Source of the DNA: Balneolaceae bacterium
GTDB lineage: Bacteria > Bacteroidota > Rhodothermia > Balneolales > Balneolaceae
Direction of reading: 5' to 3'
DNA length: 64,000 nucleotides
NCBI GenBank assembly: GCA_006969905.1
Contig: CP030887.1
Coordinates: 1,966,001 to 2,030,000 of the forward strand
Shown here: positions 1-11,456 of the stretch, piece after piece
How positions within the stretch are numbered: position 1 is the first letter of the stretch
Layout: every line of letters starts with the position of its first letter
The notes under the pieces: model-generated
The model's database searches: none
Seen by the model: the letters and a program-made list of their open reading frames with translations, nothing else
Told to the model about the DNA's origin: nothing
Position numbers and translations under genes: made by a program

Positions 1-9
1 CCATATAGC

Positions 10-2121
10 ATGATTTACAATAGGTTACCCCAACAGGTATTAGTTTTTTTAATTATTCTATTCTCAGCTTTTCTAAGCTCGTGTAAAAATAACGACACTC
101 AGTTGGTGGTTGATCCGGTAGCAGACGGAGAACTGAAATCAACATTTCCACGCATTGGCTTTTCGGAAGAAAAGAAGGAAAAGCTGGAGTCAAAAAAGAA
201 CTCGGATCAGTGGGTTGATTTGATCACCAGGATGAGTAACCAGGCAGATGGAGGATCCGAACAATACGGTTTTGGAGCCTACCATTTTGCGGTGGCCTAC
301 GCGGTTACCGGAGAGCAGAAATATGCACATACCGCCAGGGAGATGATTTTCCGGGTAATTCACGAACCTGATTATTGTAACCTCACAAGCACCTACCTTC
401 GGGCTCCGGGTTGTACCGGCCAGGTTGCATTTGCTGCAGATATACTATTCAGCGAATTATCTGACGAGGATAAAGAAGAGATCTTTGATTACCTCGAAAC
501 CGCTGCGAGTGGCATTGTTAACCTGGAGGGCTGGAGCGGCTGGGGATGGCAGGATGGTAACCCGGCATTTAAAGAGTTGAATAATTTTTATCCGGGCCAT
601 GTTCAGACAATCCTGAATTATGCTTTGCTGGCTTACAATCACAGGGAATTAGCACGCGGTTATTATAAAATGATTGTAGAAGAAGAATTGCCCCGGGCTT
701 TTGATATGATCAGGGAGGAACTGGCGGGTGGCCACGGAGCAGAAGGTACATGGTACGATGACAAGATGTTCGGGCATTACGCAGAAGTAGTACTTATGCT
801 GCGTGAGGCTACCCAGGGCAAGGTAGATTTTGGAAAGGAGTACGCAGATGTATTTGCTGATTACGCAACCTGGAGGCTCTACTCTGTTATGAACAGGAGG
901 GAAGAAAATGGCGAGCCGCAGCTTTATGATACACCAACAGGAGATCAGCCTGCCGTGGATGAAGCTAAAATCATCGACCTGGCCCGCCTGAGGCTCTGGT
1001 TATTCTCAGATGTGTTAAAAGACACTGACAGATCTGAGGTAGCAGCTTATATCCGCTACTTTGATGAAAATATAGATTTTGAAGTGAAAGGCTATCAACG
1101 TGAGTACCAATTGCATTACTTATTGCATTTCACTGATGAAGCAGGAATGGCAGATTTTACACAGGTACTTCCTGCATATTGGTATTCTGCAGGAAAAGGA
1201 GTGGCACAATACAGAACCGGCTGGGATGAAAACGCAATGGCTGTGACTATCCATTTTTCACCGAGCCAGGGCCAGCGTAACAGCCATTGGCACTTTGGAG
1301 AAGGAGCTTTCTATATATGGTATAAAGGCTGGCAGGCCGATCATCTGAACCGCGTAGAAGGTAACGGTATCCGCCAGTTTACCGGGTTGATGAATACCCT
1401 GCTTGTTAATTCAAACGATGAAACACAAGGCAGGGGAGATGCCCGTGTGTTAGCTTTTAAAGGAGAGCCTGATTTCATGATGGTAAAGGGTGATGCGAGT
1501 GAAATGTACTCGGAAAGCCTGGGTAAATTTGAGAGAACCCTGATCGTATCCGGTCACATGATCAGCATTTATGATCATGCGGAAAAACTGAATGCCGAAG
1601 ATGAAATAAATTTTATTGTAAACAACCAAAGCGGTTTTTCGATTGAAGGGAACCGGTATACCGCTCAAAACCTGGAAGGGCAGTTGGTGATTGAAACTAT
1701 GTTTCCAACGGGAATGGCTGGGAATATTACATCAGAGGCCAGCCAAAGGACAATGGGCATACAGGTAAACCTGAACTCTTCCGGGTCAACGCTCAATACG
1801 CTTCATGCTTTGCAGGTTGGCGACAAGGGTTCGGTACCTGCCGTTGTTTCTGAGGTACAAGACGGATGGTTTTATGGCACCTTCTTCAAAGGTGCGGATG
1901 CATCTTATGTACACATGATAAATGTCAGTAATCAGGGGGCTACGGGTTTGAGTTACGAGTTGGATGCAACGCACAGTATCAAACACGTTATAGCAGGGCT
2001 TAACGAAGGCGATTACCAGGTTTTGCAGAACGGGCAAACTTTAACTAACGCAAAGGTGGGAGAAGATGGAGTGCTCTCTTTCAGTTCCCCAGCCGGGGGG
2101 ATATTTAACATAGTGGAGTAG
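10..2121 (+). CDS. Heparinase II/III-like polysaccharide lyase, lipoprotein
   Basis: A 703-residue predicted exported lipoprotein: hydrophobic segment at residues 9-22 followed by lipobox LSSC with Cys25. Residues about 80-340 look like the alpha/alpha toroid of polysaccharide lyases and 395-700 like the beta-sandwich of heparinase II/III-like proteins, with the stretch starting at Ser425 (SHWHFGEGAF) matching the conserved start of that domain. Such enzymes cleave uronic-acid-containing polysaccharides by beta-elimination; the substrate cannot be told. The reading frame is open to the window edge, but the signal peptide placed at the first ATG supports this start. Its usual neighbours would be other carbohydrate genes, which are outside the window. 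Family call is by eye from domain architecture. Confidence 0.75.
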   Translation: MIYNRLPQQVLVFLIILFSAFLSSCKNNDTQLVVDPVADGELKSTFPRIGFSEEKKEKLESKKNSDQWVDLITRMSNQADGGSEQYGFGAYHFAVAYAVTGEQKYAHTAREMIFRVIHEPDYCNLTSTYLRAPGCTGQVAFAADILFSELSDEDKEEIFDYLETAASGIVNLEGWSGWGWQDGNPAFKELNNFYPGHVQTILNYALLAYNHRELARGYYKMIVEEELPRAFDMIREELAGGHGAEGTWYDDKMFGHYAEVVLMLREATQGKVDFGKEYADVFADYATWRLYSVMNRREENGEPQLYDTPTGDQPAVDEAKIIDLARLRLWLFSDVLKDTDRSEVAAYIRYFDENIDFEVKGYQREYQLHYLLHFTDEAGMADFTQVLPAYWYSAGKGVAQYRTGWDENAMAVTIHFSPSQGQRNSHWHFGEGAFYIWYKGWQADHLNRVEGNGIRQFTGLMNTLLVNSNDETQGRGDARVLAFKGEPDFMMVKGDASEMYSESLGKFERTLIVSGHMISIYDHAEKLNAEDEINFIVNNQSGFSIEGNRYTAQNLEGQLVIETMFPTGMAGNITSEASQRTMGIQVNLNSSGSTLNTLHALQVGDKGSVPAVVSEVQDGWFYGTFFKGADASYVHMINVSNQGATGLSYELDATHSIKHVIAGLNEGDYQVLQNGQTLTNAKVGEDGVLSFSSPAGGIFNIVE

Positions 2122-2124
2122 TCC

Positions 2125-2165
2125 GCCACGTTGTAGATGAAGAGCGGATGGGACTCATCTACAAC
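2125..2165 (+). repeat. Hairpin repeat, left copy
   Basis: An 11-base perfect inverted repeat, GTTGTAGATGA at 2130-2140 and TCATCTACAAC at 2155-2165, around a 14-base loop. The same element with the same loop length recurs at 9595-9635, where one stem pair has changed from T-A to G-C on both arms. The first 24 bases of the two copies differ at that single position. It lies directly after the heparinase-like gene, at the left edge of the accessory block. Confidence 0.75.
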
Positions 2166-2187
2166 AGTTTTGTGTATGAAAAGTAGC

Positions 2188-2208
2188 GCCTGCCTATCGG
2201 CAGACAGG
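2188..2208. repeat. Short palindromic repeat (CTGCC...GGCAG type)
   Basis: An imperfect palindrome built on CTGCC-TATC-GGCAG in the non-coding interval after the left hairpin repeat. It sits inside a wider, weaker inverted pair formed by a GAAAAGTAG stretch near 2178-2186 and a CTAACTTTTC stretch near 2221-2230. It resembles short GC-rich intergenic palindromes common in Bacteroidota genomes. No coding potential is convincing in 2122-2310. Confidence 0.4.
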
Positions 2209-2310
2209 GATTTTTACACACTAACTTTTCAGAAAGCAAGATACTTAATTAAAAACGAAAGCGATTCAGGTTTCGCACCCAAACCGCTATCTTTATATAC
2301 GCGGTCGTAC

Positions 2311-3378
2311 TTAGTACTTGTTTGATTTTCTTGTTTTCTTATAGTGTTTTATCATTTTTCCGAAATTTTTGTCCTTTCTGCGTTTTTCAGCTACAGTTGA
2401 TTCATAGTGTTCTTTTTCTCGTTCCATTTTCAAAAAATTCTCGAAATGTGATTTCTCTATCTGTCCATTCTCTATCGCTAATTGAACCGCACAACCACTT
2501 TCTGAGGTATGGGTACAATCCGAAAACCTGCAATCTTGTGACAGGTCGTATATAGCTTCAAATGTATTTTCCAGTCCGTCTGAACTATCAGTGATACCCA
2601 CTTCCCGCATTCCAGGATTGTCGATAAGTATGGCTCCATTTGTTATTGGAATTAATTCACGATGTGTTGTAACGTGCTTACCTCTATCAATGCTTTCACT
2701 AATAGAGGCTGTTTTCATTCGACTTTGTCCAATCAGGTTGTTAATCAGTGATGATTTTCCCACACCTGATGAACCAAGAAGACAATATGTCTTTCCTTTA
2801 TAGAGAAGTTTTTCCAATTTATCTATTCCAGCCTTTGTTTCATTACTTACGTGAATAACTGGTACATTTTCAATTCTGATTTTTATTTTGTTGAGCAAAT
2901 CATTCAGGTTCTGCTCGTCCGTTAAGTCCGTTTTGGTTACAACTATTATAGGCTCAATCTTGGAACTGTAGCAAAGCGTTAAATATCTTTCCAATCGGTT
3001 AATATTAAAATCCCTGTTTACCGACTGCAGGATTAATCCATAATCGATATTGCTGGCAATTATTTGCAACTCACCAAACTTGTTTACAGCTTGTCTGGAA
3101 AGAGTTGAAAACCTGGGTAGAATACTATGAATAATTGCAAAATTAGGTTCATGATTTATCAACGAAACCCAATCACCTACAGCTGGAAAATCTTTACGGC
3201 TTTTGGCAGAAAACCTTAAATTTCCTGTAATCTCTGCTTCAAATTCACCTTTTTCATTCTTTACAATATACCTTTCCTTGTGTTCGGCTATTACACGTCC
3301 AATTTCAAAATCACCAAGAGAATTCTTTAAAATATAGTCTTCAAATTCCTTAACATATCCTAAATCGTATATATTCAT
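2311..3378 (-). CDS. rsgA: RsgA-like ribosome small subunit-dependent GTPase
   Basis: A 355-residue circularly permuted GTPase. An N-terminal OB-fold-like region (about 20-90) precedes the G domain, where the order is G4 TKTD at 148-151, P-loop GSSGVGKS at 202-209 and G3 DNPGMRE at 253-259. A zinc knuckle follows with Cys283, Cys288, His290 and Cys296. RsgA family members help mature the 30S subunit and release RbfA. The gene follows the acetyltransferase with an 11-base gap, so the two are probably co-transcribed. Being inside a cassette-like block and beside a second rsgA 5' remnant, it may be an accessory copy rather than the housekeeping one; that needs the rest of the genome to decide. 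Confidence 0.88.
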   Translation of the reverse strand: MNIYDLGYVKEFEDYILKNSLGDFEIGRVIAEHKERYIVKNEKGEFEAEITGNLRFSAKSRKDFPAVGDWVSLINHEPNFAIIHSILPRFSTLSRQAVNKFGELQIIASNIDYGLILQSVNRDFNINRLERYLTLCYSSKIEPIIVVTKTDLTDEQNLNDLLNKIKIRIENVPVIHVSNETKAGIDKLEKLLYKGKTYCLLGSSGVGKSSLINNLIGQSRMKTASISESIDRGKHVTTHRELIPITNGAILIDNPGMREVGITDSSDGLENTFEAIYDLSQDCRFSDCTHTSESGCAVQLAIENGQIEKSHFENFLKMEREKEHYESTVAEKRRKDKNFGKMIKHYKKTRKSNKY

Positions 3379-3389
3379 ATTGTTTTGAT

Positions 3390-4001
3390 TTAAATATTAA
3401 TGGGAAATTTTGGTTGCCCCTTTTCTTTTTCTGGAAAAAGATTTTCAAATTCTAGAAAATCAGTTTCATTGACTTGAAATGCTTCGTCATCAAAAAATCT
3501 ACCTGTAATTTCATTTAATCCATTTTTTTGAAGTTCTAAAGCCATAAATTGAGGGAAATTCTGACCTTCTTTTGTGGTGATACCGTACTTGCGTGCATCA
3601 TCAAACCCAAAGCGATGATAGTAATTGGGGTCACCAAATAAAATCATACCCTTATAAGCTAATTCTTTTGCCACAGTAATAGAATGCTTTAAAAGCTGAG
3701 TGCCAATGCCCATTTTTTGCATTTCAGGTAAAATGGCAAATGGACCAACACAAAGGATCTCATGTTCCTTATGTTGATTATCAACAACTTTCGCCTTGCT
3801 TGAGATAATATGTCCCACAATCTTTTTATTGTAAATAACGAGTAAATCAAGTTGTGGTATGTACTCTTTACTTTTGCGTAAATTATGTAAGATGAAGTGA
3901 TCTGTACATCCAGGTGTAAATAAATTCCAAAATATTTCTCGGGTAAAATTCTCTGTATAATTATATTCTGTTTTCTTTGTTTGTCTAATGGTTATTTGCA
4001 T
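3390..4001 (-). CDS. GNAT family N-acetyltransferase (YhbS-like)
   Basis: A 203-residue GNAT fold protein. The acetyl-CoA pyrophosphate loop QKMGIG is at 95-100, after the beta strand CVGPFAILPE, and the GDPNYYHRFGF signature at 123-133 is typical of the YhbS-like subgroup. The acceptor substrate is unknown. The start ATG overlaps, in another frame, a short stretch that looks like the beginning of a second rsgA gene (4054-4101), as if this gene had replaced the rest of it. It is immediately upstream of the RsgA-like gene on the same strand. Confidence 0.85.
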   Translation of the reverse strand: MQITIRQTKKTEYNYTENFTREIFWNLFTPGCTDHFILHNLRKSKEYIPQLDLLVIYNKKIVGHIISSKAKVVDNQHKEHEILCVGPFAILPEMQKMGIGTQLLKHSITVAKELAYKGMILFGDPNYYHRFGFDDARKYGITTKEGQNFPQFMALELQKNGLNEITGRFFDDEAFQVNETDFLEFENLFPEKEKGQPKFPINI

Positions 4002-4053
4002 AATCTTTAAAATTACGTGTCTTTATTTTAACTAATTTGATTTTTAGGACAAG

Positions 4054-4101
4054 TCTATATTTTTCGAAGTAATCATTATATCCTAAATCTTGAAGTTTCA
4101 T
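4054..4101 (-). pseudogene. rsgA 5' remnant
   Basis: Reading leftward from the ATG at 4099-4101 gives a peptide beginning MKLQDLGYNDYFEKYR, which parallels the start of the intact RsgA-like protein in this block (MNIYDLGYVKEFEDYI). The similarity ends after about 16 codons and the frame closes inside the start of the acetyltransferase gene. The CTAATGGGC motif at 4117-4125 stands 16 bases upstream, as at other presumed cassette starts. I read it as a truncated rsgA copy; chance similarity over 16 codons is possible but less likely. Confidence 0.55.
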
Positions 4102-4129
4102 CGTTTCTATGTATTCCTAATGGGCTTTG

Positions 4130-4924
4130 CTAGTTTAATTTAATTACTTTGGTTGTGCTGTTTACCAAAGTTTCAAACCGATTCAATTCTTCACGGTTTT
4201 TTATTTCATAATGCATGGGAATAGCAATTTTGGGTTTAATTTGATTTACAATCTCAGCAGCCTCCTCCTCATTCATCGTTAGGTTATCTCCTCCAATAGG
4301 AACCAAAGCAACATCAATACCACTCAATTCTTTCATTTCAGGGATATAGTCTGTATCTCCTGCATGATAAATTCTTAAACCATTTTTTGATGTGATGACA
4401 TAGCCCACATTTTCTTTTGATTTAGGGTGGGCTTTAATCCATAAAAAAACCGGTTTTGTATTGTATGCAAAAATTGTTTCGATGCTAAAATCTTCAAATT
4501 GTAATTGTTGATCAGGTTTTACGATCTGGATTTCGTTTTTGACATCTCTTAATTTTTTTGCGGCTCCTTTCGAACAAATAATCTCTGTTTCATCTTTTAA
4601 AAGGGCTTCAATATCTGTTGAAGAGAAATGGTCAGGGTGAGCATGAGTTATCAAAATATAGTCTGCTGGTTCTGCATTCTTAACTTTTACAGGGTCGATG
4701 TAAATAACCTTATTATCAATTTTCAGCTGAAAACTCGATGGGAAAAAGTGTGACTTGTTTACTTTGATAGCTCCCCAGGTTGTTAACGTTGTATTTTCTT
4801 CTATAGTTATTTTTTGGGGAATAGGATTTCTTTCCTCGCTTATCTTCACTTTTACCATGGTACAACCTTGATTAATTGATAAAGCCAAGCAGAGTATTAA
4901 AAAGTATAATCTGTTTGTCTGCAT
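4130..4924 (-). CDS. MBL-fold metal-dependent hydrolase (UlaG-like), exported
   Basis: A 264-residue metallo-beta-lactamase fold protein with an N-terminal hydrophobic signal ending near Cys21; the lipobox is poor, so lipoprotein status is uncertain. The metal site is visible as HAHPDH at 94-99, HAGDTD at 187-192 (Asp190) and His238 in PMHYE. The compact layout resembles the UlaG/L-ascorbate-6-phosphate lactonase-like branch rather than class B beta-lactamases. The TetR gene lies upstream on the same strand and a perfect palindrome 48 bases before the start could be its operator. The substrate is unknown. Confidence 0.85.
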   Translation of the reverse strand: MQTNRLYFLILCLALSINQGCTMVKVKISEERNPIPQKITIEENTTLTTWGAIKVNKSHFFPSSFQLKIDNKVIYIDPVKVKNAEPADYILITHAHPDHFSSTDIEALLKDETEIICSKGAAKKLRDVKNEIQIVKPDQQLQFEDFSIETIFAYNTKPVFLWIKAHPKSKENVGYVITSKNGLRIYHAGDTDYIPEMKELSGIDVALVPIGGDNLTMNEEEAAEIVNQIKPKIAIPMHYEIKNREELNRFETLVNSTTKVIKLN

Positions 4925-4971
4925 TTGTAATGGAATATTTTCACAAAAATAAATACCACAAATGTCAAACT

Positions 4972-4989
4972 TTAGACGGTTCCGTCTAA
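4972..4989. promoter_or_regulatory. Probable TetR-type operator
   Basis: Perfect inverted repeat TTAGACGG-TT-CCGTCTAA between the end of the TetR gene and the start of the MBL-fold gene. Length, symmetry and the AGAC/GTCT half-sites are typical of TetR/AcrR operators. It could also act as a weak hairpin at the end of the TetR transcript, though no T tract follows. Confidence 0.55.
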
Positions 4990-4990
4990 T

Positions 4991-5536
4991 CTAATTCCTT
5001 TTTGGTTTTTGGAAGAGGAGCACCATTTTCCGGATATCCGCAAAATATGCTTTTAGCCAATCACGGTTTAAGGTCTCATGGGTAATTTGCAGATAAAAAT
5101 TTTCCAAACTAAGATGTAACACCATTTTAGCCAGGGGGCTATTTCCTGATAAAGAAATTATGTTTTTCCATACTGGTAATAATCCCTGAATTGAGAATTG
5201 ATTTATTTGAGATAAACACTTTTTGAACGCTTTATTGTCTCTGTGAATTCTTAATTGACGATTGAAGAGCAGGTCAGTTTTATGTTCGATAATAACAGAT
5301 ATTAATTCTTCTTCAGTTTTAGTATTTGATTCCTTTGCAGAAATATTTTTTGCTCGTCTTAAATGTAATTCCAGCAGACTTTCAGTAAAAACCTCTAAAT
5401 CAGCAAACAAATGATAAAATGAAGACTTATTCTTACCGACCTCTTTAGATAACCTTTCTACCTTAAGTCCATTTGGACCTTCATGAGCAAAACATTTGTA
5501 GCCTGTTTCTAACCATATTTTTTCTATTTCTCTCAT
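4991..5536 (-). CDS. TetR/AcrR family transcriptional regulator
   Basis: A 181-residue regulator. The N-terminal helix-turn-helix covers about residues 23-45 (LKVERLSKEVGKNKSSFYHLF), with the SFYHLF recognition-helix end typical of TetR proteins. The C-terminal two thirds is helical and would bind an unknown ligand. It is followed by a palindrome and the MBL-fold gene on the same strand, so it probably controls that gene. It lacks the CTAATGGC motif seen before some other genes of the block. Confidence 0.88.
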   Translation of the reverse strand: MREIEKIWLETGYKCFAHEGPNGLKVERLSKEVGKNKSSFYHLFADLEVFTESLLELHLRRAKNISAKESNTKTEEELISVIIEHKTDLLFNRQLRIHRDNKAFKKCLSQINQFSIQGLLPVWKNIISLSGNSPLAKMVLHLSLENFYLQITHETLNRDWLKAYFADIRKMVLLFQKPKRN

Positions 5537-5551
5537 TTAAAGATGAAGAAA

Positions 5552-5612
5552 AGTGATTCACTACTAAAGTACAAGCATCTTCTCACGCATAGAAATTTTA
5601 GCGAGAATCACT
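5552..5612. repeat. Spaced inverted repeat
   Basis: AGTGATTC at 5552-5559 pairs with GAATCACT at 5605-5612, enclosing 45 bases with further weak pairing. It lies directly upstream of the TetR gene. It could be a decayed recombination hairpin or part of the promoter; nothing decides between these. Confidence 0.35.
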
Positions 5613-5653
5613 AAGGTCATATCAACATTGGTCGGGAATATTGATCTTTGATT

Positions 5654-5680
5654 TTTGAATACAGCTCAAAGTATATTCTC
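5654..5680. repeat. Dispersed 27-base repeat, copy 1
   Basis: A 27-base stretch centred on GAATACAGCTCAAAGTAT that recurs with one mismatch at 11383-11409 upstream of dapD. It contains a small TTTGA/TCAAA stem. This copy lies between the TetR and MerC genes. No known element was recognised. Confidence 0.6.
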
Positions 5681-5705
5681 TATGTTTAATTTTTCCATCT
5701 GTTCC

Positions 5706-6110
5706 TTAGTCACTATCTACACAACAATGATCTGTTTTGCAATGACAATACCTGCGGTTGTACAAATGTAGTATTACCAGAAATGTAGCAGCGAAGTAAG
5801 TAACAGCTTCAGAAAGTTCCAGCCAACTGAATTGCTCGTTCACAATTACCAGGGAGAGTACAACCCAGCTTACCCAGAACAGAGGTTTCATGAAACTGCG
5901 TGAAGTTGTCTGGACGGAACGGTATACAGCAAAAAATGAAATAATTAAAAAAGCATAGTTAATCGAGACCCACCACGTTGGAGCTTCACCACTGTAATCA
6001 GCAGAACCAGCCATTGCTACAAATAGAAAAGGGGTGGCGAAGCAATGAAGCATACATAAAGTACCAGCTAATGCGCCTAAAGAATCGGATTTATTAATCG
6101 TTAAATTCAT
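5706..6110 (-). CDS. MerC domain membrane protein
   Basis: A small four-helix membrane protein of the MerC family, about 134 residues from the chosen ATG. The first helix carries LCMLHC (Cys19, His22, Cys23), the conserved metal-contacting pattern, and the tail is rich in Cys and His (YCHCKTDHCC). MerC proteins are linked to mercury or other heavy-metal uptake. An in-frame ATG at 6147-6149 would add 13 residues but lies only 13 bases from the operator, so the internal start is preferred. It is divergent from a Fur-family gene, and in Bacteroidota such pairs suggest zinc or other metal homeostasis. Confidence 0.85.
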   Translation of the reverse strand: MNLTINKSDSLGALAGTLCMLHCFATPFLFVAMAGSADYSGEAPTWWVSINYAFLIISFFAVYRSVQTTSRSFMKPLFWVSWVVLSLVIVNEQFSWLELSEAVTYFAATFLVILHLYNRRYCHCKTDHCCVDSD

Positions 6111-6162
6111 CAAATAGTTTTCTTGAATAAAAAGGGAACAAATATACATAATTACTTGCTAT

Positions 6163-6177
6163 TGCAACACAGTTGCA
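6163..6177. promoter_or_regulatory. Probable Fur/Zur-type operator
   Basis: Palindrome TGCAAC-ACA-GTTGCA located between the divergent merC-like and Fur-family genes, 12 bases before the latter start. Its position suggests that the Fur-family protein represses both genes through this site. Confidence 0.6.
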
Positions 6178-6189
6178 TTAAAATTAACA

Positions 6190-6570
6190 ATGGGCATTAC
6201 ACGTAGAACAAAGTCAGTTGATTTATTGCTTGCTGAGTTTGATAAGGAATCAGGAGCAATTTCTGTAATTGAATTAATCGAGCGTCTTAATTATAAGATT
6301 AACAAGACTACCATCTATCGTGTGCTTGATAAGTTAGAGGACGACGCTATTCTGCATTCTTTTCTGGATAGCAATGGAAATAAGTGGTACGCAAAATGTG
6401 AAGGTTGCTCAAAGCACCGGCATTATGACGTTCACCCTCATTTTGAATGCATGGACTGTGGAAAAGTGGATTGTTTACCTGTCGAAATTTTGATCCCGAA
6501 CATAAAAAATCGCCAGATCGAAAGTTCTCAAATACTGATTAAAGGTAAATGCGAGGAGTGTGTTGGGTAA
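6190..6570 (+). CDS. Fur family metal-responsive regulator (Zur-like)
   Basis: A 126-residue winged-helix repressor. The DNA-recognition region KTTIYRVLDKLE is at 39-50; the metal sites are the HPHFECMDCGK segment with His82, His84, Cys87 and Cys90, and the C-terminal CEEC with Cys121 and Cys124. This is the usual Fur/Zur pattern with a structural zinc. It is the only rightward gene of the accessory block and is divergent from the MerC gene, with a shared palindrome between them. Whether the signal is zinc, iron or another metal cannot be told from sequence. Confidence 0.88.
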   Translation: MGITRRTKSVDLLLAEFDKESGAISVIELIERLNYKINKTTIYRVLDKLEDDAILHSFLDSNGNKWYAKCEGCSKHRHYDVHPHFECMDCGKVDCLPVEILIPNIKNRQIESSQILIKGKCEECVG

Positions 6571-6615
6571 CGTGGCTAAACTGCGTTTTAATGCAGTTTA
6601 GGTGATGTTGTAAGC
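6568..6615. repeat. attC-like imperfect hairpin
   Basis: The perfect stem CTAAACTGC (6576-6584) and GCAGTTTAG (6593-6601) encloses an 8-base loop and extends imperfectly outward to TAACGTGGC on one side and GTTGTAAGC on the other. These outer boxes are the same as at other putative sites of the block. It overlaps the fur stop codon and lies between oppositely oriented genes. There is no T tract, so a simple terminator is less likely. Confidence 0.5.
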
Positions 6616-6621
6616 CGTTTT

Positions 6622-7197
6622 TTATCTAAACTGTTTTGATTTCATCTGTAAACTAGCGTTTTCAACGATTTCCGAAATTCGTTTATTTCTTGTGTTATCT
6701 CTCTTAGCTGAAACTACCCAGTATAGAAGCACTTTTTTAGAAGATTTATTTAGACTTTCAAAGTATTGCATTGCTCCTTTCTGTATTCTAAGTTCTTGTT
6801 CCAGGTCTTCAGGTATCTCTAGCCTTTCAACAATATCTAGAATTGCCCAAGAATCATTTTCTTTTGCAATTTCAATGCTTTTATAACCAGCTTCTTTCAT
6901 AAGTTTCTGATCAATTAGGTTTTTTATTTTATCCTTATTTACTTTTGACCAATTACTTTTCGGCTTTCTTTTACTGAAATATTGTTTGAATCGCTCTTTA
7001 TCAATTGTCTTTTTTGTACTGTCAATCCAGCCAAAACAAAGTGCTTGGTCAACAGATTCACTCCAACTAAGGTTGAAATTTGGATTGCTTTTTTTATAAA
7101 AAACCAACCAAACGGCATCCTTTCTTTTATGATTCAATTCAAGCCATTCTCTCCATTCTTCTTCACTTTTCGGACAAATTTCTTCCGCTTCTTTCAT
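6622..7197 (-). CDS. YdeI/OmdA family protein
   Basis: A 191-residue protein of the YdeI/OmpD-associated family. It shows the family start CPKSEEEWREWLELNH, the core SWSESVDQALCFGWIDS at about 44-60, then the RFKQYFSKRKPKSNWSKVN segment. Members have been linked to peptide or phage susceptibility in some bacteria, but their biochemistry is not settled. It stands alone between two putative recombination motifs with CTAATGGC 11 bases upstream of its start, as expected for a single-gene cassette. Confidence 0.85.
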   Translation of the reverse strand: MKEAEEICPKSEEEWREWLELNHKRKDAVWLVFYKKSNPNFNLSWSESVDQALCFGWIDSTKKTIDKERFKQYFSKRKPKSNWSKVNKDKIKNLIDQKLMKEAGYKSIEIAKENDSWAILDIVERLEIPEDLEQELRIQKGAMQYFESLNKSSKKVLLYWVVSAKRDNTRNKRISEIVENASLQMKSKQFR

Positions 7198-7207
7198 TCT
7201 GGTTTCT

Positions 7208-7231
7208 CTAATGGCAAACAGTGTTGTAAGC
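7208..7231. repeat. Cassette-junction motif pair
   Basis: CTAATGGC at 7208-7215 followed by GTTGTAAGC at 7223-7231. The same pair, with GTTGTAAGC reversed and abutting, occurs at 9497-9511. Here no long hairpin is present, so this could be a degenerate attC-like junction between the YdeI gene and the hydrolase operon. Confidence 0.45.
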
Positions 7232-7275
7232 GTTTTTATATCACAATAACTTTAGACACCCTCTAATTCTCTATA

Positions 7276-7746
7276 TTACTTAGTTTGCCTAGGTTTAGAC
7301 TTTCTGTATCGCATGATAACAATTGTCATGGAACCAAGAATAAAGCTCGGTATAATTTGAACAAGTGTTCCATAAATCGCATGATTTAACAATACTTGTG
7401 GTAAGGTATCAAAATATAGACCGTAATGAGTCCCTAATCCCCATGTGATATCAACCCACCAGGCTGCAACGACAGTAAGACGTGAAATAGGTGAAAAGAT
7501 TGCTAAACTGATCAGTATAAGTAGGTATGGTTTCTGCTCATTATGTAGTTTAATTCCCCAATACACAGAAAAGGCTAAGGATAGCCAAAGAAGTCCAATT
7601 AAAAATATTGTGGATTCAGGAAGACCAGCAAGTTCAAGCAGAAAACGAACAGGGGTTACAAAAATGCTAATGATTATAGGCATTTTCGCAAGATCAAAGG
7701 CTTGTTGAAGAGTACCTTGTTTGTTGCTTAATTCCATTTTAGACAT
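7276..7746 (-). CDS. Membrane protein of unknown function
   Basis: A 156-residue protein with about four hydrophobic segments, near residues 17-36, 44-66, 73-95 and 118-146. I do not recognise a family. Its start overlaps the end of the alpha/beta hydrolase gene by 8 bases, indicating translational coupling, so the two probably share a promoter. A second ATG three codons in would remove the overlap. Confidence 0.7.
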   Translation of the reverse strand: MSKMELSNKQGTLQQAFDLAKMPIIISIFVTPVRFLLELAGLPESTIFLIGLLWLSLAFSVYWGIKLHNEQKPYLLILISLAIFSPISRLTVVAAWWVDITWGLGTHYGLYFDTLPQVLLNHAIYGTLVQIIPSFILGSMTIVIMRYRKSKPRQTK

Positions 7747-8701
7747 TCTGTTGTTTCAACCATTTTAGAATTGCTTGAGTTGTTTCTTCTGGTTTTTCTT
7801 GTTGAATACAATGACCACAATCTAGACTAATCACTTCTACATTAGGAACGAAATCTGTCAGGCTGTCGGACTTAGGAATCATATCCTGTTCACCATAAAT
7901 CATGAGTGTAGGATGTTGAATGGTTGGGTTTACATTTGCCAGTAAATGCCAATTTCGGTCAAGGTTTCTGTACCAATTAATAGCTCCTGCAAATCCTGAT
8001 GTTTCGAAAGCAGAAATATAAATAGCCAGCTCACTTTCACTCATTATTGGTTCGCCAAGTGGTTTTTCGGATCTTGCAAGATTAATCATTAACATTCCTG
8101 GCTCTGGCGGTGCAAGGGGTACGTTCTTTCTGAATAAATTTCGAAGGAAATTAGTTTTGTTTTCATCTAGTATAGCATCTGCGACTCCTTGTTGGCGATT
8201 AAAGTGAACGAAATAATTATCTTCTCCGAAAATTTCCTCCATCCACTCAATCCAAGGTTTTTCTCCACGAACCTGATAAGGTAAAGCCAAGTTTATTATT
8301 TTGTTTACTCGTTCAGGATGTAATAATCCAAGGCTCCAAACAACATTTGCCCCCCAATCATGACCAACAAAAGTGGCATTTTCATAGCCATAGTAATCGA
8401 GTATTGCAATCATATCATCCGTTAAATTTACAATGTCGTACTCCGTTATTTCAGTTGGACAAGATGAGTTACCATAACCACGCTGATTTGGAGCAATGAT
8501 ATGATAGCCGGCTTTAACAAGTTCGGGAATCTGAAAACGCCAGGAATACGCAATCTCTGGAAAGCCATGGCAGAGTACAATAGGTTTACCTGTATTTTGT
8601 CTGCCTGCTTCGAATACTTCGAGTTCTACACCATTGACTGAAATCATTTTGGGGTCCGGAAATCCAATCGATTGAATCTCTTTGATAGTTACATTCTTCA
8701 T
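7739..8701 (-). CDS. Alpha/beta hydrolase, epoxide hydrolase-like
   Basis: A 320-residue alpha/beta hydrolase. The oxyanion motif HGFPE is at 45-49, the nucleophile Asp115 lies in GHDWG, the acid is probably Asp273 in GEQDMIP, and the base His297 in CGHC. A lid Tyr is likely in the NWYRNLDRNW segment near 242-251. An Asp nucleophile with HGxP points to epoxide hydrolases or haloalkane dehalogenases, the former being favoured. Its promoter region contains a site shared with another operon next to a WYL regulator, so it may respond to the regulator encoded upstream. Confidence 0.88.
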   Translation of the reverse strand: MKNVTIKEIQSIGFPDPKMISVNGVELEVFEAGRQNTGKPIVLCHGFPEIAYSWRFQIPELVKAGYHIIAPNQRGYGNSSCPTEITEYDIVNLTDDMIAILDYYGYENATFVGHDWGANVVWSLGLLHPERVNKIINLALPYQVRGEKPWIEWMEEIFGEDNYFVHFNRQQGVADAILDENKTNFLRNLFRKNVPLAPPEPGMLMINLARSEKPLGEPIMSESELAIYISAFETSGFAGAINWYRNLDRNWHLLANVNPTIQHPTLMIYGEQDMIPKSDSLTDFVPNVEVISLDCGHCIQQEKPEETTQAILKWLKQQNV

Positions 8702-8751
8702 TATTTTTAATGCTTATAATTAATTAATGATACAAATGTAAGGTCGACCTG

Positions 8752-8767
8752 TGACAGCCTTATGGCA
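8752..8767. promoter_or_regulatory. Putative WYL-regulator site, copy 1
   Basis: TGACAGCCTTATGGCA, 51 bases upstream of the hydrolase start. Thirteen of 16 positions match the site at 15750-15765, which lies 50 bases upstream of the DinB operon. Both operons neighbour a YafY/WYL-type regulator gene, so this is a plausible operator. Confidence 0.5.
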
Positions 8768-8781
8768 AGGGTCAAATAGAG

Positions 8782-9471
8782 TTAATGATATTTGTCAAAA
8801 TATTCTTGTAAAGTCATATTATGAGGCTCAAATTTTTCCGATAAAATTTCCATTTTTTGAATTCTGTCAGGACGAAAAAATCGAAATTCCTTGCGTAAAC
8901 GACACCAAGCAATCAAATACCAATTTTCAGCACTCAAAAGGGCAAAAGGCTCTATCAACCTTTTAGTAGCAGTTCCTTCTTTATTGACATATTCTATACT
9001 CACCAATTTGTAACTGGTAAGTGCATTTTGTAAATCTGATAAATTATTACTGTTCCGTTCTTGATTTATGACTTGGTCATATTGAGTTCTGTTGGTAAGT
9101 ATATTTGCTTTGTCTTTGATAGTATATCTAAGAATTGATTTTATTTTATCAATCGCTTCCGAATAGTCTTTTACAAATGAAGCATCTTTATTTTTTAAAA
9201 CTAACTGTTCTGCAAGTATTAAAGCATTTGCTTGTTGTTCTGTGAACATTACAGGAGATATTCTAAATCCCTCCATTAAAGTGTACCCTTTTCCTTCTTC
9301 TGTCAAAATAGGGACACCTGCTCTTTCTAATGCTTTTATATCTCGGTAAATAGTTCGTTTACTGACATCAAATTTTTCAGAAAGAGTTTTAGCTGTCAAT
9401 ATTCTTTTGGTTTGCAGTTGTGTCAAAATTGCAGTCAATCTTGAAATTCTCTTGATGTCGTCTCCTTCCAT
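8782..9471 (-). CDS. YafY-type HTH/WYL transcriptional regulator
   Basis: A 229-residue regulator with an N-terminal HTH_11 domain (about 7-60, containing SKRTIYRDIKALERAGVPI) and a C-terminal WYL domain (about 145-220, containing RLIEPFALLSAENWYLIAW). WYL proteins are ligand-responsive regulators. It lies upstream of the hydrolase and membrane-protein genes on the same strand. A second, longer WYL regulator is encoded at 16393-17346 beside another operon carrying the same upstream site. CTAATGGC stands 26 bases upstream of the start. Confidence 0.9.
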   Translation of the reverse strand: MEGDDIKRISRLTAILTQLQTKRILTAKTLSEKFDVSKRTIYRDIKALERAGVPILTEEGKGYTLMEGFRISPVMFTEQQANALILAEQLVLKNKDASFVKDYSEAIDKIKSILRYTIKDKANILTNRTQYDQVINQERNSNNLSDLQNALTSYKLVSIEYVNKEGTATKRLIEPFALLSAENWYLIAWCRLRKEFRFFRPDRIQKMEILSEKFEPHNMTLQEYFDKYH

Positions 9472-9496
9472 TTAGGATATGTTGATTTTGTTTTTT

Positions 9497-9602
9497 CTAA
9501 TGGCTTACAACGTGGCTGGGCTAAGTACAGTGGTTATACCATTGAATTTAGTCCAAGTTGGGATGAGTTGCTACGCAACTTTGTACTTAGCCCAGCCACG
9601 TT
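9497..9602. repeat. attC-like site with 21-base perfect arms
   Basis: A 21-base perfect inverted repeat, left arm 9509-9529 and right arm 9582-9602, encloses 52 bases that contain a smaller hairpin AGTTGC-TAC-GCAACT (9566-9580). The arms end in GCCACGTT boxes, with GCTTACAAC at 9503-9511 and CTAATGGC at 9497-9504 outside. Two outer boxes ending in AAC/GTT, long imperfectly filled arms and a total near 100 bases are the general design of integron attC sites. No covariance search could be run. Confidence 0.6.
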
Positions 9603-9635
9603 GGAGATGAAGAGCGGAGCGAATTCATCTCCAAC
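9595..9635 (+). repeat. Hairpin repeat, right copy
   Basis: GTTGGAGATGA at 9600-9610 and TCATCTCCAAC at 9625-9635 form an 11-base stem around a 14-base loop. It is the partner of the copy at 2125-2165; the single stem difference is compensated on both arms. It overlaps the end of the attC-like site and marks the right edge of the accessory block. Confidence 0.75.
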
Positions 9636-9761
9636 ATAGGAATATAGCGCACTGAGTTCCTCATATCCCAATTACATGTTTAATAGTTATTCCTCATATT
9701 CTTGTAAATAGCAGGAATACGATGAATAAAACAGATTTAATCACAAAGTACAAACATACGC

Positions 9762-11102
9762 TTACTCTGCATCCTGCAGTAATGTTTTCTTACCTGTCTC
9801 AAAGTTTTTGGTAATAACTGCCCGGTCATATTCTTCTCCCAGCACAGTGTATGCTACATAGGTCAGCGTATTATCCTCAACAGAAATTACCTGGAAGAAC
9901 TGGGTTTGCTCGCCGGCTTTATCCCGTTGGTATCCATCGGTTGCATAAGCTTTCATTTGCTCATCGTCTATCCTGTACTGTTTTGGGCCGCTCACAGAAG
10001 TGACGTACATGGTTCCAATATCACCGGAGGTTTCACCATCGGTATTTCTAACCGGGATATGGCCTCTTGCGTAAGTATGATCATGACCATTAAGTACAAG
10101 GTCAACCCCATATTTATCGAGTAACGGTTTCCAGTGATCGCGGGCAAACTGGAAGTTTCGACCCTTAGCTGGTGAAAATACAGAGTGATGACAGGTAATG
10201 ATCTTCCATTTAGCCGTGCTGTTTTTTAACTGGTTTTCGAGATACTCCGTTTGTTCTTCGAGTTGATCAGCAGAATTTAATACGATGACTTGTATATCCT
10301 GGTAATTTACAGAATAGACCGTCTCGTGAAGTTTCGGATCCAGGCCTTGTTCAACCGGAAGGGTAAATTGTGGTCGCCATTGAATGGATAGTGTTCTGGG
10401 TCGCAATTGCGAGGTTCGCATGAATTCATGATTCCCGACAACAGGTATGGCTGTCCACTGGCTGTGGATGAAACCTCCGGCTTTAAACCATTGAGCCCAC
10501 TCATAATCCCGGTGTGCATAATTCACAAGATCGCCGGCATGGACTACAAAAGATGCATCAGGAGCTGTTTGATAAGCCATTCGAATTACCCGGGACCAAT
10601 GATTGAGTATATCATTCTGTGCATCGCCAAAGTAAACGAATTGAGTGGGGGCGTATTCAGCTTTAGCTGTACGAAAATGAATCCACTCTGACCAGTGTTC
10701 GTCACCATCACCCACTCTGTAGGCATACAGCATATCTGGTTTTAGTCCTTCAAATACCACGCTGTGATAGTGGACAATTAGTGAATTATTATCCTTGTAT
10801 AAACCGAGATCAAATTCTTCTGTAGTTGCATTTACCGTGATTGCATTCTCAGTAAATTTTGAGTTTTCAGTTGCTTCTGCGATTTGCGCAACTGCCCCGG
10901 AAATGCTGGTATCCGTACGCCATGTTACGGCACGGGTGGTTGCAGGATCACCATTAAAAGTAAGTATAATCCGATCCGGATCTTTACTGGGGATTTCCCA
11001 GTGATGCAAACCATCATGATCATGAGTATGCTGAGCTACAACAGGGAAAGTTAAAAAGCATACTAATAAAGCCACACAAAAAGCTAAATAACAGGATCTC
11101 AT
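9762..11102 (-). CDS. Purple acid phosphatase-like metallophosphoesterase
   Basis: About 446 residues from the chosen ATG, with a signal peptide ending near VVAQ. An N-terminal fibronectin-like domain (about 35-145) precedes a calcineurin-type phosphoesterase domain. Metal ligands can be seen in GDAQ (Asp160), AGDLVNY (Asp191), GNHEF (Asn224, His225), CHHS (His305) and NGHDHTY (His340, His342). This is the two-metal site of purple acid phosphatases, acting on phosphate esters outside the cytoplasm. An upstream in-frame ATG at 11150 would put 16 residues before the signal peptide, so the later start is preferred. It reads towards the accessory block but has no visible coupling to it. Confidence 0.87.
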   Translation of the reverse strand: MRSCYLAFCVALLVCFLTFPVVAQHTHDHDGLHHWEIPSKDPDRIILTFNGDPATTRAVTWRTDTSISGAVAQIAEATENSKFTENAITVNATTEEFDLGLYKDNNSLIVHYHSVVFEGLKPDMLYAYRVGDGDEHWSEWIHFRTAKAEYAPTQFVYFGDAQNDILNHWSRVIRMAYQTAPDASFVVHAGDLVNYAHRDYEWAQWFKAGGFIHSQWTAIPVVGNHEFMRTSQLRPRTLSIQWRPQFTLPVEQGLDPKLHETVYSVNYQDIQVIVLNSADQLEEQTEYLENQLKNSTAKWKIITCHHSVFSPAKGRNFQFARDHWKPLLDKYGVDLVLNGHDHTYARGHIPVRNTDGETSGDIGTMYVTSVSGPKQYRIDDEQMKAYATDGYQRDKAGEQTQFFQVISVEDNTLTYVAYTVLGEEYDRAVITKNFETGKKTLLQDAE

Positions 11103-11150: not shown

Positions 11151-11456
11151 AATATAGGATTAGGTATAACATAAGAAAATCAAAAAGGAGTATCTTCTGA
11201 TTTACTAGCCCAAGGTAGCAGATTTCTATTAATTGTATATTATTAGTTGTCTCGCATACAAAAATTATTCTTGTTTATTTACTAGTATCTCTGGCTTATT
11301 TCGGAAATCAAAACTTAAAAATTGGCATGCTTTTTATTTCCTACCAAAATGGATTTAGAGTATCGATTTTTGATACTTGGAATTTGAATACAGCTCAAAG
11401 TATCTTCTCCGATCAGATTTCTAATACGACATTATTCTAAAAACACAACTCAGTCC
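11151..11456. other. Intergenic region between phosphatase and dapD
   Basis: About 300 bases with no convincing gene. It must hold the divergent promoters of the phosphatase and dapD. A GATACTT/AAGTATC inverted repeat (11372-11378 and 11398-11404) surrounds the second copy of a dispersed 27-base repeat. Confidence 0.6.
11383..11409. repeat. Dispersed 27-base repeat, copy 2
   Basis: Matches 5654-5680 with one mismatch, about 50 bases upstream of dapD. In this copy flanking bases add a GATACTT/AAGTATC stem. Confidence 0.6.

Follow-up and report, generated by a model that had tools for sequence, protein, structure and literature searches.

The window analysed here, a 64,000-nucleotide stretch of the chromosome of a Balneolaceae bacterium (contig CP030887.1, positions 1,966,001 to 2,030,000), contains at 2122-9640 a block of accessory genes that, judged by its sequence anatomy, very probably represents what decay has left of integron-type platforms, probably two in tandem, from a separate lineage with a smaller recombinase. 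The sequence-only reading of the block had proposed an integron-like cassette array without integrase, with divergent sites, and possibly a cassette lineage of Balneolota. The array and the divergence of its sites are supported. No working integrase lies beside the array, but the block does carry a truncated integrase start with attI at 9618-9769 and a second start at 5540-5608, and the lineage is spread over Bacteroidota, beyond Balneolota.

Platform relics and the intact array

Positions 9618-9768 match the attI and integrase start of a congeneric genome (G003) at 79.5% over 151 bp (E 1.9e-32). By this match and by the alignment A1, the attI region occupies 9618..9721 on the minus strand, and the first 16 codons of an integrase (MNKTDLITKYKHTLTL) follow at 9722..9769 on the plus strand (tblastn, 75% over 16 aa). 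The alignments of attI and integrase start indicate that a platform was once present in the window, its recombinase gene having been cut after 16 codons. A second integrase-start relic (MKKSDSLLKYKHLLTHRNFSEN) lies mid-block at 5540..5608 on the plus strand (tblastn, 64% over 22 aa); its positions 5540-5604 match the attI/integrase start of another congener (G004) at 83% (E 1.3e-12), which suggests two tandem platforms. Six further matches to such relics occur across the genome. Relics of attI recur along contig C1, the same chromosome (L032:7159, L033:8039, L034:13864, L035:6880-7018, L035:3642, L036:10947 and window 9618); most keep just the first few integrase codons, and that of L034 also retains a C-terminal fragment. 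The sequence TTTGAATACAGCTCAAAGTATMTTCTC occurs twice in the window, at 5664 behind the second integrase relic and at 11383, 1.6 kb past the block, and perhaps once lay downstream of the integrase gene.

When the genome was searched with the window hairpin 9595-9660, copies were found elsewhere, of which three are complete and lie together in one intact array at C1:2280-2285 kb. Its recombinase gene (C1:2286824-2287663), 311 kb from the block on the same chromosome, encodes a 280-aa tyrosine recombinase, here called the compact integrase. The whole arrangement (C1:2279-2288 kb) consists of the rightward integrase, a conserved attI and, on its left, leftward genes for an NYN/OST-HTH protein, a BsuBI/PstI-type restriction enzyme, a C5 methyltransferase, an AAA ATPase, an Mrr-type endonuclease and one other protein; the array (L030 9631-16735) is rich in defence-type genes. 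Each gene lies between a GTTxxxxxx box and its reverse complement, as in GTTAGGCTC...GAGCCTAAC and GTTGTGCCT...AGGCACAAC; a hairpin comes next, then another GTT. By this layout, the intact array is built as integron cassettes are.

The sequence-only reading had thought an integrase elsewhere in the genome worth seeking, and besides the compact enzyme at C1:2.287 Mb a true IntI is found at C1:1.0006 Mb (C1:1000596-1001537; TIGR02249, 426.9 bits). Cassettes of the IntI array (L029 9240-10380) end in classical-looking attC (CCTAACGACCCGGCGTTTAAGC). The genome thus holds two integron-type systems.

Candidate recombination sites of the block

The covariance model R1, derived from 20 sites outside this genome and from no sequence within it, has its strongest hit across all 3.49 Mb in the block, at the attC-like site of the RsgA cassette (2157..2312, minus strand; R'' box degenerate), with 49.5 bits and an E value of 3.1e-7. 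Alignment of the 20 attC sites leaves no invariant letters except AACA and GTT at the two ends and a few other positions, among them an unpaired A that stands opposite a near-invariant C in the stem. Compensatory changes occur at 14 of the 15 stem pairs, and the consensus reads AACAATGTATATAAxxxATAGCGG...CCGCTACxxxxxATATACxxACCGTT. Classical attC follows the same logic of conserved structure, free sequence and a fixed unpaired base, whereas the consensus here is distinct; the IntI array of the same genome (L029) yields no R1 site. At 19 attI junctions, a 9-nt reverse-complement boundary with a hairpin next to it was present in 11, against 4 of 1630 random GTT positions, and multi-cassette chains show changing 9-nt boxes.

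Two of the three box types that the sequence-only reading had listed as recurrent proved to be enriched in the block and not equally common elsewhere. GCCACGTTR occurs in the block at 2125(+), 6568(-), 9508(-) and 9595(+), with one more copy elsewhere in the window; the total of 5 compares with 0.24 expected per 64 kb and was reached in 0 of 100 shuffles. GTTGTAAGC lies in the block at 6607(+), 7223(+) and 9503(-), with one more copy elsewhere in the window, against 0.47 expected. The third, CTAATGGC, is at chance level (two exact copies in the block and one elsewhere against 1.9 expected, equalled in 31 of 100 shuffles) and was rejected as a recombination box. The hairpins reported in the block are real: a scan of the 64 kb for AAC..GTT sites with pairing arms gave three, two of them inside the block at 6569-6609 and 9509-9602, and the covariance model added the block site at 2157-2312. 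An Rfam scan gave no match. The boxes fall into two classes: GTTGTAAGC/GCTTACAAC are the R boxes of gene cassettes, and CAACGTGGC..GCCACGTTG form the perfect stem of a mini-cassette that carries no gene and is repeated.

The mini-cassette, about 128 bp in length, recurs in near-identical form; its long stem is perfect, so that its attC lacks the A/C asymmetry of gene-cassette attC. The copy nearest attI (9509..9636, minus strand) consists of GTTGGAGATGA..TCATCTCCAAC and a 21-bp perfect-stem attC; the genome holds six near-identical full copies, and congeners hold more. Mini-cassettes alternate with gene cassettes at window 9509-9636, at C1:2280411-2284734, on contig C33 of G003 and at L114:9934 and 12028. 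A second, unrelated family of like design occurs on a Chryseobacterium plasmid. Such elements are possibly parasites of cassette arrays.

Cassette turnover between congeners

In each of two pairs of congeners, attI is nearly identical and the cassettes differ, the likeness being regained past the array or some cassettes further along. G001 and G003 are 93-98% alike outside the arrays; the match breaks off precisely at the attI GTT and returns 12.6 and 14.5 kb further along. Near-identical attI and flanks here enclose entirely different arrays. G003 also carries a mini-cassette inserted at attI. Between G006 and G002, a similarity of 97.7% likewise breaks off at attI and returns some 3.5 kb away.

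The compact integrase

The catalytic residues GLR, K, HxLRH, GH and Y are invariant in 17 of 17 sequences. GKxxKxR and HxLRH are 58 residues apart in those array-linked compact enzymes in which both could be located, 100 in 8 of 8 IntIs including IntI1, and 68-69 in Xer; the difference between 58 and 100 residues means that the compact enzyme is without the IntI-specific insert of about 42 aa. It scores 205 bits against the integron integrase model TIGR02249, below the cut-off of 265, and the match skips positions 180-238. Its best NCBIfam match is the XerA-like NF040815 (218.6 bits, cut-off 220). In the tree, a single clade with support 100 unites the IntIs and excludes the compact enzymes. 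The predicted structure (mean confidence score, pLDDT, 86) finds its best matches in XerA and IntI4.

Distribution in Bacteroidota and phage contigs

Across a sample of 394 Bacteroidota genomes, searched for integrase relatives at E<=1e-55 and for R1 sites at E<=1e-4, relatives of the compact integrase occur in 95. R1 sites occur in at least 184, about half, with at most eight candidates scored per genome. They are present in 87 of the 95 genomes with a compact integrase and in 97 of the 299 without (odds ratio 22.6, p 7e-26, a value that overstates independence because genomes share ancestry). IntI is present in 107 of the 394 and shows no positive association with R1 sites (odds ratio 0.63). 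Around relatives of the compact integrase outside Bacteroidota, 474 kb of sequence yielded no R1 site. True IntI over the cut-off, found in 106 of the 394 genomes, is far commoner in this sample than published complete-genome surveys suggest. Integron surveys target IntI with its special domain and therefore miss the compact lineage: for Bacteroidetes, IntegronFinder 2.0 listed a single complete integron, that of Salinibacter ruber M1 (PMC9024848), against the 184 genomes with R1 sites here.

In IMG/VR contigs, sites are found at 49 of 80 loci, and all 217 of 217 sites lie on the strand opposite the integrase. Dense arrays, with as many as about 15 sites per 8 kb, stand beside compact integrases in phage-type contigs (L269-L348, e.g. 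L298, L335 and L309). Small genes in L298 and L335 are oriented against the usual gene-to-attC polarity; L298 also carries thymidylate synthase and deazaguanine-pathway-like genes of the large-phage kind, as judged by sequence. In a sister branch, whose integrases are longer (344-391 aa), the array lies downstream of the integrase gene and in the same direction (L138-L143, L114, L193-L218).

On pHH1107 (FJ012881.1; L113, 5028-7150), the resistance gene tet(X3) lies directly behind a truncated recombinase of the compact family (tnpF/'xerD'), after an attI-like GTTATGTGCC. It is followed by the apparent start of an attC of the compact-integrase type (TAACAAGCAGTTTTGCAATAGTGGGG), which is cut off; the truncated site is not scored by R1. 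This arrangement suggests that tet(X3) was once a cassette on a Bacteroidota platform. Open-access full text gave only the known context of tet(X).

Proposed mechanism and alternative explanations

The compact recombinase would cut in GTT and join attI to the folded attC that a cassette carries once excised as a circle, so that new cassettes would enter adjoining attI, and attC x attC events would remove or shuffle cassettes. Later truncation of the recombinase genes in the window would have left behind attI, the array and relic start codons. The sites of the block might in principle still be used by the intact enzyme, 311 kb distant.

Several observations weigh against this account. The recombination it proposes is inferred from anatomy and comparison. 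The compact integrase is without the domain reported to be necessary for IntI activity, and the array-linked compact integrases group together only weakly (approximate likelihood-ratio support, SH-aLRT, 80). The block itself is decayed: recognisable attC is kept by only two of its gene cassettes, one cassette junction has no hairpin, and R' and R'' mismatch at cassettes 2 and 3. Relatives of its RsgA elsewhere adjoin such sites in 0 of 24 cases. The flanking genes are absent from all seven congeners, which makes an empty-site comparison of the block impossible.

Since the genome has a true IntI with classical-looking attC cassettes upstream, the block could be an attC cluster of that integron (C1:1.0006 Mb) moved off its integrase. 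This origin is very improbable: R1, which matches the block, gives no site in the IntI array, its sites are unassociated with IntI across the genome sample, and the attI and integrase relics of the window belong to the compact integrase. On the first two of these results, the classical IntI was rejected as owner of the block. It is equally improbable that the hairpins are ordinary terminators, or a repeat like a miniature inverted-repeat transposable element, between unrelated transferred genes with no cassette system. The gene-less mini-cassette, as a near-identical repeat with a perfect stem, would fit such elements, as would the position of the block in AT-rich transferred DNA (G+C of 34.9% in the block, 45.9% at window 1-2121 and 39.5% at 9762-64000). 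Neither origin, however, fits mutually reverse-complementary cassette boundaries, an unpaired A/C mismatch conserved within a covarying stem, cassette replacement at attI junctions between congeners, or sites linked and strand-oriented to one integrase family. An ordinary genomic island, inserted whole and once at a chromosomal site by an Xer-like compact integrase, is likewise very improbable. The near-cut-off match to NF040815 and the place of XerA among the best solved-structure matches favour such an event, whereas the boundaries recur at every cassette and not just at the block ends, single mini-cassettes differ at attI between congeners, and multi-cassette chains have changing 9-nt boxes. 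Two decayed integron-type platforms with a compact recombinase remain the preferred explanation.

Gene content of the block

From attI outwards, the block is read on the minus strand, from 9636 to 2125. Behind the proximal mini-cassette, cassette 1 (7276..9471, minus strand) holds a WYL regulator (8782-9471), an alpha/beta hydrolase (7739-8701) and an unknown membrane protein (7276-7746), between boundaries GTTGTAAGC (9503) and GCTTACAAC (7223). Its junction with cassette 2 (7219..7231, minus strand), as read from the sequence, has collapsed to the R'' box GCTTACAAC, the hairpin being lost. Cassette 2 (6622..7197, minus strand) encodes a YdeI/OmdA protein (PF13376); its attC-like site, GCTTACAAC-ATCAC-CTAAACTGC..GCAGTTTAG-CCAC-GTT, lies at 6569..6615 on the minus strand, is supported by the hairpin scan and has an R box that pairs with the start of cassette 1. 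A Fur-family regulator (6190..6570, plus strand; PF01475), whose stop codon lies inside the R' box of this attC, is divergent from a MerC-like membrane protein (5706..6149, minus strand; PF03203).

Beyond the second integrase relic, all further features lie on the minus strand: a TetR-type regulator (4991..5536; PF00440, below cut-off), an MBL-fold hydrolase (4130..4924; PF13483), a remnant of another rsgA start (MKLQDLGYNDYFEKYR, 4053..4101, read from the sequence; compare MNIYDLGYVKEFEDYI of RsgA at 3378), a GNAT acetyltransferase (3390..4001; PF00583) and an accessory copy of an RsgA-type GTPase (2311..3378; PF03193, 173 bits). A second RsgA copy lies at C1:2216542-2217597 (48%). The distal end of the array is a truncated mini-cassette (GTTGTAGATGA..TCATCTACAAC and GTGGC, 2125..2166), 86% identical over 42 nt to the copy at 9595-9636 and with copies genome-wide. 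The gene order of the block is not conserved elsewhere in the genus.

Relation to known systems and implications

With IntI integrons, both mobile (classes 1-3) and sedentary chromosomal, the system shares a divergent tyrosine recombinase, an adjacent attI, tandem and mostly same-strand cassettes, GTT/AAC core boxes and a folded attC conserved by structure over sequence. It differs in its compact integrase of about 280 aa, without the IntI insert and outside the IntI clade, in an attC of another consensus with an A/C mismatch, in gene-less mini-cassettes between gene cassettes, and in a sister branch whose array lies downstream and co-oriented with the integrase. Three features of an integron in the broad sense are found, namely the catalytic residues, a conserved attI with a changing first cassette and tandem AAC/GTT-bounded cassettes with folded attC. 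Three of three marks of IntI are lacking in the compact enzyme: a score above the TIGR02249 cut-off, the additional domain near patch III and a position in the clade. Integron-like in its working and failing the three IntI tests, the system is thus a kind of integron and not an IntI integron.

The block resembles a CALIN (attC cluster lacking integron integrase, an IntegronFinder term) as a site array without a working integrase beside it, and differs in carrying relics of its own attI and of a non-IntI integrase. Archaeal XerA and bacterial XerH-type enzymes share the size and catalytic core of the compact enzyme, XerA being the best sequence match. Xer enzymes resolve chromosome dimers at a single dif site, whereas the compact integrase gene sits at attI with a cassette array. 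An 'Integron-like' subgroup of simple tyrosine recombinases is said to include insert-less proteins; the passages on this subgroup call the insert essential for integron function and give no cassette arrays for the insert-less members (Smyshlyaev et al. 2021, PMC8138268). That IntI activity requires the insert is stated in the literature (Messier and Roy 2001, cited in PMC9668308 and PMC2426708; also PMC8138268). In arrays with an insert-less enzyme, either other parts take the role of the insert or the chemistry differs.

No description of an integron lineage with a compact integrase was found in the open-access full-text literature, although an unseen paper or preprint may exist; the lineage is apparently undescribed so far. 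The block gives a view of a widespread second integron-type system. On balance we favour the broader proposal that this second, independent, insert-less lineage serves Bacteroidota as a main route of gene exchange, with dense arrays in large Bacteroidota phages, mini-cassettes as array parasites and the source context of tet(X3). If the compact enzyme does recombine folded sites without the 'necessary' domain, the account of how single-stranded attC is handled needs revision, and a minimal enzyme for the study of folded-site recombination would be at hand. The system would then explain much of the accessory-gene traffic of Bacteroidota, defence genes included, and perhaps also where a resistance gene of clinical importance came from.

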